The position numbers were made by a program, and so were the translations under genes. The notes beneath the pieces were generated by a model. The model was not told where the DNA came from, made no database searches, and was given only the letters and a program-made list of their open reading frames with translations. A DNA stretch of 64,000 bases from Hyphomonas atlantica corrig. (GTDB taxonomy: Bacteria > Pseudomonadota > Alphaproteobacteria > Caulobacterales > Hyphomonadaceae): assembly GCF_000682715.1 (NCBI RefSeq), contig NZ_AWFH01000034.1, positions 62,001 through 126,000 of the forward strand, given 5' to 3'. Shown here piece after piece: positions 12,471 to 44,041 of this stretch (position 1 is its first letter; the number at the start of each line of letters is the position of its first letter).

Positions 12471-12508
12471 CCCCTCTCCCCCCGGGGAGAGGGGCAGGGG
12501 TGAGGGGG
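12471..12508 (+). repeat. Left hairpin repeat flanking the DUF559 gene
   Basis: The perfect 11-bp arms CCCCTCTCCCC (12471-12481) and GGGGAGAGGGG (12484-12494) have a 2-nt loop and are followed by the G-rich tail CAGGGGTGAGGGGG. It is an inverted copy of the repeat at 12879-12915. Its hairpin end faces outward (1 nt from the UDG start codon) and its tail faces the DUF559 stop codon 13 nt away. Confidence 0.85.
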
Positions 12509-12521
12509 CACACAGTTGAAG

Positions 12522-12866
12522 TCATAGTCCCAATCTCTCCTGCACAAGACCCATCAGATGGTCTGCATCAAACACGTCGCTAGCTGGAACTCGCAGGAAA
12601 TCCCAGCCAAGTCCACGCAGCGCCTGCTCACGGATGTCATCCCGCGCCTTCACCTCCGGCAGCTTGTGGATGCCGCCATCGATCTCGATGATCAGCCGCA
12701 CTTTCGTGATGGCGAAATCGACGATGTAGCCGTTGATCGGGTGCTGTCGGCGGACCGGGAAGCCCTGCTTGCGAAATTGGCGCAATATCTGCCATGCGAC
12801 CTGTTCAGGCGCATTGGCGTCCTGCCGCAGGCGACGGGCGCGCGGCGTGGACAAGTCACGTGTCAT
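12522..12866 (-). CDS. DUF559 (Vsr-like) endonuclease-domain protein
   Basis: This 114-residue protein fits the DUF559 family, which has the Vsr/PD-(D/E)XK restriction-endonuclease-like fold. Seen here are the N-terminal helix EQVAWQILR, then FRRQ-type FPVRRQHPINGYIVDF, the acidic strand pair D..I-x(8)-LIIEIDGGIH (candidate metal ligands Asp/Glu/Asp) and the C-terminal GWDFLRVPASDV strand. It is not a standard restriction-modification or mismatch-repair Vsr: no methyltransferase is nearby. Its SD-like GAGGGAG is formed by the tail of the flanking repeat. Substrate and role are unknown. The tight repeat frame suggests it is the mobilising component of the repeat family. Confidence 0.88.
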   Translation of the reverse strand: MTRDLSTPRARRLRQDANAPEQVAWQILRQFRKQGFPVRRQHPINGYIVDFAITKVRLIIEIDGGIHKLPEVKARDDIREQALRGLGWDFLRVPASDVFDADHLMGLVQERLGL

Positions 12867-12878
12867 CGGCTTTGCGCT

Positions 12879-12915
12879 CCCTCACCCCCGGCCCCTCTCC
12901 CTCAAGGGAGAGGGG
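12879..12915 (-). repeat. Right hairpin repeat flanking the DUF559 gene
   Basis: The tail CCCTCACCCCC (12879-12889) is followed by perfect 11-bp arms CCCCTCTCCCT (12892-12902) and AGGGAGAGGGG (12905-12915) with a 2-nt loop. Its reverse complement matches the left repeat in both hairpin and tail, with differences mainly in the loop-proximal bases. The compensating C/G versus T/A change next to the loop keeps pairing perfect. Confidence 0.85.
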
Positions 12916-43988: not shown

Positions 43989-44018
43989 GCGGCCAGGCCA
44001 GCAATTGACTCAAACGGC

Positions 44019-44040
44019 GGAGCCCCTATGTAGGGGCTCC
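44019..44040 (+). terminator. Terminator hairpin of alaS
   Basis: The perfect 10-bp arms GGAGCCCCTA and TAGGGGCTCC have a 2-nt loop, abutting the SAM-II aptamer at 44042. The U-tract is poor, so it may work as an insulating or Rho-assisted hairpin. Confidence 0.65.
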
Positions 44041-44041
44041 G

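Follow-up and report, generated by a model that had tools for sequence, protein, structure and literature searches.

The question raised by this locus is whether a small nuclease gene and the inverted hairpins that frame it form a mobile unit, and whether the nuclease is the part that mobilises it. In the window, by which is meant the whole 64,000-nucleotide stretch of Hyphomonas atlantica DNA that was analysed, the gap between UDG and ggt is occupied by a unit of 445 bp in the order hairpin-tail-DUF559-tail-hairpin (12471-12915, no strand assigned). Its outer left end is a hairpin with 11-bp arms and a 2-nt loop (12471-12494, + strand), followed by the inward-pointing purine tail GGGGTGAGGGGG (12497-12508, + strand, read from the sequence), and its right end is the inverted copy of that hairpin (12892-12915, - strand), with an inward-pointing purine tail that reads GGGGGTGAGGG on the - strand (12879-12889, likewise read from the sequence). 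The DUF559 gene between them (12522-12866, - strand) encodes a PD-(D/E)XK Vsr/homing-endonuclease-like protein of 114 aa. The anatomy given by the first-pass annotation was confirmed: both hairpins have perfect arms, 2-nt loops and inward tails, the spacers between repeat and gene are 13 nt on the left and 12 nt on the right, and the compensatory change beside the loop is real, the innermost pair being C-G in the left hairpin and T-A in the right one. The unit also fills the ggt-UDG gap as had been described, with the UDG ATG (12469) 1 nt and the ggt stop (12919) 3 nt beyond the hairpins.

Hairpins with arms of at least 11 bp and loops of at most 4 occur at five positions in the window, two of which are those of the unit. 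The unit's hairpins are not due to chance: in ten randomised windows drawn from a first-order Markov model, the numbers of such positions were 0, 0, 0, 0, 0, 0, 1, 0, 1 and 0. The exact pattern CCCTCTCCC-N(0-8)-GGGAGAGGG was found at two places only in the host's own genome (3,604,440 bases in 63 contigs), both of them at the window unit. A further window hairpin with 11-bp arms and a 2-nt loop (CGGAGCCCCTATGTAGGGGCTCCG), at 44018-44041, falls outside the C-rich type.

The window protein has an intact frame and scored 83.1 bits against PF04480 (DUF559; cut-off 20.6), and its best NCBIfam model was the ycjD-type DUF559 model, under the cut-off of which it scored. Residues E21, D50, E61, D63, H67, R79, and R92 were invariant in alignments that included the window protein, which has the majority residue at all but 4 of the 26 columns conserved to at least 85%; we take the invariant E, D, H, and R residues to be catalytic in the predicted activity. 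An AlphaFold model (mean pLDDT 92) was closest in fold to I-Bth0305I (1.8e-5) and 3hrl (1.0e-4), followed by Toxoplasma and Tetrahymena mitoribosomal proteins, PvuRts1I (8e-3), and Vsr (0.03), and the profile matches were 3hrl (9e-36), 3r3p, which is I-Bth0305I (1.9e-4), PvuRts1I (7e-4), and Vsr (0.26). The Vsr/PD-(D/E)XK-like fold named in the first-pass annotation was upheld by profile, model, and fold comparison, and the protein is modelled as a putative nuclease of PD-(D/E)XK fold and Vsr/EDxHD type, I-Bth0305I being an EDxHD enzyme. I-Bth0305I and Vsr are relatives of the protein in fold and profile but differ in role, which is homing or mismatch repair, and we know of no framing of either by cognate hairpins. 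The profile of YcjD is reported to pick up Vsr (PMC1189080). Assignment to a known defence gene was rejected, the PADLOC matches being weak and to parts of large proteins for 2 of 3 proteins. With one query protein, DUF559 proved rare on plasmids and phages, which counts against the explanation favoured below: matches came from 44 of 72,556 plasmid records, of which some are clearly chromosomal, and from 4 of 50,697 phage records.

A profile search of the host's order found DUF559 in 210 of 299 genomes (624 genes), and 80 regions carrying 82 of the genes, with 40 later ones, were picked by hand among the listed best-scoring matches. Linkage was scored with hairpins of any sequence (arm of at least 8, loop of at most 8) and with control ORFs more than 1.5 kb from DUF559. 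A hairpin lay within 250 bp on both sides of 59 of the 82 DUF559 genes, on one side of 21, and on neither side of 2, against 17, 155, and 506 of the 678 control ORFs (p 4e-53 for both-sided hairpins); one locus (L032) is truncated at a contig end. By eye, the 17 both-sided control ORFs had no family in common, and their hairpins were in many cases not C-rich. The first-pass annotation had proposed that its claim be judged by whether the repeat is commoner near DUF559 genes than elsewhere, and C-rich hairpins were indeed about 90-fold denser there, at 4.13 per kb up to 260 bp from DUF559 and 0.046 per kb in those parts of the same regions that lie over 1.5 kb off. Both tails could be read at 39 of the 82 genes, and pointed inward at 27, outward at 6, and the same way at 6.

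The wider searches yielded 107 loci, 80 from named genome contigs and 27 from a phylum-wide draw, of which 5 lay too near an end to be scored. The remaining 102 loci, taken without an ORF control, had hairpins on both sides in 63 cases, on one side in 28, and on neither in 11; L339 was excluded as too short, and the set partly overlaps the first sample with duplicates kept (L261 and L308 resemble L119 and L069, and L360 resembles L277). Contigs with hairpins on both sides carry labels such as Nitrospira, Binatia, Gastranaerophilales, Desulfobacterales, and Gamma- and Betaproteobacteria, and many of them are metagenome bins whose taxon labels may err. The pairing of DUF559 with hairpins recurs in other classes and phyla beyond the host's order.

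The hairpin with its G-rich tail is a known repeat, the PIT or intrastrand triplex repeat, and the window unit has the features of PIT/TM repeats, namely a CCCTCTCCC-GGGAGAGGG pyrimidine-purine hairpin and a purine mirror tail. PIT/TM_ECO (Holder et al. 2015, PMC4666352) likewise has the form CCCTCTCCC-loop-GGGAGAGGG-GGGTGAGGG and is found singly or in inverted pairs. In that paper's treatment of E. coli, TM sites are described as having no transposase or integrase remnants nearby, and the repeats are tied to instability with no dedicated enzyme named; unlike there, a link to DUF559 and covariation with the DUF559 tree are reported here, and come from the present analysis. Membership in a known RNA family was rejected, as each of the three matches scored under its gathering score.

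Over 197 module sides, the tail scored as a mirror of its own purine arm with a mean of 0.772, while arms swapped between units (200 trials, a control that does not preserve relatedness) reached at most 0.596 and the direct repeat 0.606. Among 168 asymmetric arms the mirror beat the direct repeat in 115, tied in 36, and lost in 17. The arm GGGAGAAGG was paired with the tail GGATGAGGG in 22 of 24 cases and the arm GAGAGAGGG with the tail GGGTGAGAG in 12 of 15; the mirror tail was inconsistent in some arm types, such as GGGGAGGT (n=5). Tails often have one T facing an A of the purine arm, and the left tail of the window unit is such a mirror with one T facing A. By these scores the tail changes along with the purine arm as its mirror image, which an intrastrand triplex would require; the folding itself is a prediction, in which the left tail is a possible third strand.

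Hairpin type follows the DUF559 phylogeny. Among 127 units (L157, which has an in-frame stop, was excluded), the type label was the same on both sides in 58 of the 86 with both sides labelled, compared with a mean of 19 and a maximum of 32 in 2000 shuffles. On the DUF559 tree, with the five commonest types, the 5' type required 18 changes (n=93 of the 127 units) and the 3' type 21 (n=101 of 127), against at least 31 and at least 39, respectively, in 200 within-genus shuffles. Median protein identity within genomes was 0.91 for same-type pairs (13, including recent duplicates and not independent) and 0.57 for different-type pairs (37); between genomes of one genus the values were 0.69 (n=154) and 0.59 (n=321). 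Besides the window gene, the host's own genome has a second DUF559 gene; it sits in the serS-surE gap, flanked by the inverted hairpins CCTCCCCC-loop-GGGGGAGG, a type that differs from that of the window unit. Between families the link of type to protein is almost gone (0.457 against 0.442, p 0.007; nearest neighbour with the same type in 7 of 86, 7.4 expected), a result that counts against the explanation favoured below.

These data bear on the view that DUF559 is a VSP-like host repair nuclease and that the repeats are fragile sites, which rearrange solely through replication errors and carry the gene along by chance or keep it for the repair it gives them. Such a view accords with the modelled Vsr-like fold, with the repair role proposed for DUF559 proteins in work on VsrA of Caulobacter, a DUF559 protein described as needed for the SOS response when a cytosine methylase is missing (PMC12907096), and with the instability of TM repeats, for which the account in PMC4666352 names no dedicated enzyme. 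It does not predict that hairpin type tracks DUF559 phylogeny beyond host genus, nor that DUF559 paralogues of one genome have different hairpin types, and we consider it rather unlikely.

Copy number was counted in the 299 genomes of the order with the pattern CCTCYCCC-N(1-8)-GGGRGAGG. The median was 18 copies in the 210 genomes with DUF559 and 3 in the 89 without a match, and repeat number correlated with DUF559 number (Spearman 0.59, 299 genomes; reached in 0 of 500 within-genus permutations), so that the expectation that repeat copy number tracks DUF559 was borne out. There were exceptions, which count against the explanation favoured below, with 10 or more copies in 18 of the 89 genomes without a DUF559 match and zero in 14 of the 210 with DUF559, and one genus (f2g19) opposed the trend (rho -0.08). 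Some DUF559 genes of pattern-free genomes (L121, L134, L144) are flanked by other hairpins. Some of the DUF559 absences may be false, because the E. coli control genome was missed by the PF04480 genome search, though MG1655 ycjD, a DUF559 gene, scores 167 bits.

An alternative is that RAYT/Y1 transposases move the repeats as ordinary REPs and that DUF559 is carried as a passenger. In its favour, the palindromic doublets are REPIN-like and repeats show a weak unadjusted correlation with the presence of Y1_Tnp (0.16). Y1_Tnp was found in 67 of the 299 genomes, however, and its partial correlation with repeats given DUF559 was 0.02, while that of DUF559 given Y1 was 0.57; GTAG/CTAC lay within 8 nt of 7 of 162 hairpin feet and CGTC/GACG of 6 of 162. 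The number of repeats tracks that of DUF559 genes whether or not Y1/RAYT transposases are taken into account, and the passenger reading is rejected as having next to no probability. The resemblance to the REP/REPIN-RAYT system (REPtron) is nevertheless close in that inverted tailed palindromes, a single framed nuclease gene, gene-less doublets, and type specificity are shared. The differences are that the REPtron has a GTAG/CGTC tag at the palindrome foot, found here at few feet, with a purine mirror tail instead, and a Y1 transposase, in place of which there is here a PD-(D/E)XK nuclease and no genome-level link to Y1 (299 genomes). CGTC REPs are described in PMC3733652 as having no dedicated transposase. 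The host's own genome has a single weak Y1_Tnp match (G000:C12:61236-61553), which is under the cut-off.

Signs of mobility were seen in duplicated units, in gene-less doublets, and in the states of orthologous junctions. In one genome, two units 151 kb apart are 98.8% identical over 672 bp and have unrelated flanks, and three further within-genome pairs that were inspected are 86-92% identical. Homology in these three pairs stops at or near the modules, two of them having weak similarity about 25 nt further out. Ten gene-less doublets fetched from the genus of the 98.8% pair are 83-95% like the unit ends and have the same two edges; their flanks differ, save in L398 and L405, which lie at apparently one orthologous site. 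Gene-bearing units and gene-less doublets thus have ends in common, as in pairs of a MITE and its autonomous transposon, from which the present case differs in that no target-site duplication was found and there is no known transposase. Neither a target-site duplication nor a target motif was established at ggt-UDG, in the within-genome pairs, at the helicase locus described below, or at the duplicated unit of genome G054, which is without a clean empty partner because its neighbourhood is a repeat-rich intergenic site in its genus. None of these sites offered a clean recent insertion to set beside an empty allele, and the lack of a duplication or motif counts against the explanation favoured below.

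When the pattern was widened, 12 hairpins came up in the host's own genome; the window unit accounts for 2 of them and the second unit for 3, and the other 7 belong to gene-less doublets or doublet fragments at other places. One 104-bp gene-less doublet (L218 1501-1604, contig C12 of that genome) is read through in frame within a helicase-like gene. At the helicase gene, a stop-free insert was present in 8 of 30 congener loci (30 fetched of 42 genomes with a match; junction read by tblastn), in several hairpin types and at the same loop.

The first-pass annotation had called for a search among relatives for junctions without the unit, and these exist at both ggt-UDG and serS-surE, so that neither of its two tests refuted the claim. 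Thirty ggt-UDG loci of the genus were fetched from 38 matching genomes, and ggt lay beside UDG in 21. The junction was filled in 4 of these, held a unit with an internal deletion of the gene in 1, a doublet in 1, and one hairpin alone in 3, and had no C-rich hairpin in 12. Among the closest relatives it is filled, partly deleted, or occupied by one hairpin; those lacking any C-rich hairpin belong to more distant congeners. The window DUF559 is 91, 71, and 63% identical to those of filled congeners, for which UDG identity is 95, 79, and 80%, a divergence that suits inheritance and loss. The window copy looks old, without sign of recent movement, because DUF559 identity roughly follows that of UDG and the genome has no other exact hairpin copy; this counts against the explanation favoured below. 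At serS-surE, 30 loci were fetched from 41 genomes with a match: 3 are filled, 5 have doublets, of which some are degenerate, 1 keeps a short remnant, and 21 are empty (0-2 bp), among them the three closest relatives. DUF559 there is 73% identical between the host's own genome and G120, with surE 94% identical, which would suit separate arrivals of the two DUF559 genes.

Homing, too, would leave junctions filled in distant congeners and vacant in others; the nuclease would make a double-strand break at the vacant site, and repair would copy the unit in from a homologous occupied one. The best fold match of the protein is indeed the homing endonuclease I-Bth0305I (profile E 1.9e-4), and two Rhizobium phage relatives are annotated as homing endonucleases. 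Homing into homologous sites gives neither 98.8%-identical units nor 83-95%-identical doublets at unrelated sites, and it is judged improbable as the explanation. A further view, that the hairpins serve transcription termination or mRNA stabilisation and are kept by selection at gene ends, accords with their mostly intergenic position and with a genome paper in which a role in termination is presumed for the same palindrome (PMC2869309). Terminators alone are rejected in the face of a doublet within the helicase reading frame, hairpin-free junctions in relatives, and the roughly 90-fold concentration at one gene family; this view is very improbable, and termination could stand as a secondary role.

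The reading preferred here is that the unit is an autonomous, gene-bearing element of the triplex-module repeat family, that gene-less derivatives of it exist, and that DUF559 mobilises it, and we hold this to be probably correct. The elementary module would be a hairpin and a purine tail able to fold back as a triplex, and gene-less doublets and single modules would be non-autonomous derivatives of the gene-bearing unit. The DUF559 nuclease would recognise its own hairpin-tail type, extruded single-stranded or folded, for example at replication forks, and would cut at the recognised module; host repair would then copy or move the module-bounded stretch elsewhere, or lose it. The cut by DUF559, the form of DNA cut, and the route of repair are the parts of this scheme that we infer. 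In proposing DUF559 as a mobiliser comparable to RAYT for REPs, the first-pass annotation was supported in part, on anatomy, type specificity, and copy number, and mobilisation by DUF559 and the chemistry of insertion are best read as conjecture. To a broader version, in which DUF559 proteins are the mobilising nucleases of widespread minimal elements with triplex-module ends, the arm-tail mirror is recognised type by type, and PIT/TM repeats, those of E. coli included, are non-autonomous offspring, we give even chances.

In E. coli MG1655, PIT no. 9 of Table 1 in PMC4666352 (1351239-1351204) has fabI and ycjD as its neighbours, the ycjD end being 168 bp away. A second module, tailless in MG1655, overlaps the ycjD end and has its tail in NZ_LT883142. 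No module was seen on the other side of ycjD when it was inspected, and the presence of repeats on one side only counts against the preferred reading. The PIT/TM repeats, including those of E. coli, have so far been without a known spreader, and DUF559 is a candidate nuclease partner for them; with ycjD in E. coli K-12, their origin is directly testable. If the reading is true, a large nuclease family of unknown function would have a job, and there would be a REP-like system whose enzyme is unrelated and whose DNA structure is a different one. Among titles and the openings of abstracts, no literature linking DUF559, COG2852, or YcjD to these repeats was found; preprints, and subscription journals for the most part, lay outside this scope, and an earlier report is possible.

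Several loci showed other arrangements. On a Rickettsiales contig (L294 2700-3600), hairpin arrays surround DUF559 and the start of the DUF559 gene is repeated past the array. In a Rickettsiaceae MAG (L295 2700-3560), DUF559 lies within inverted repeats that include the A/T-rich hairpin CAAAATAG, an arrangement that may be relevant to the movement of Rickettsia palindromic elements. In L139, near a contig start, a sequence of about 100 bp occurs as two direct copies just ahead of a DUF559 gene (260 bp upstream). In another genus of the order (L069 11793-13565), a gene that is gamma-glutamyltranspeptidase-like by eye has C-rich hairpins on both sides.
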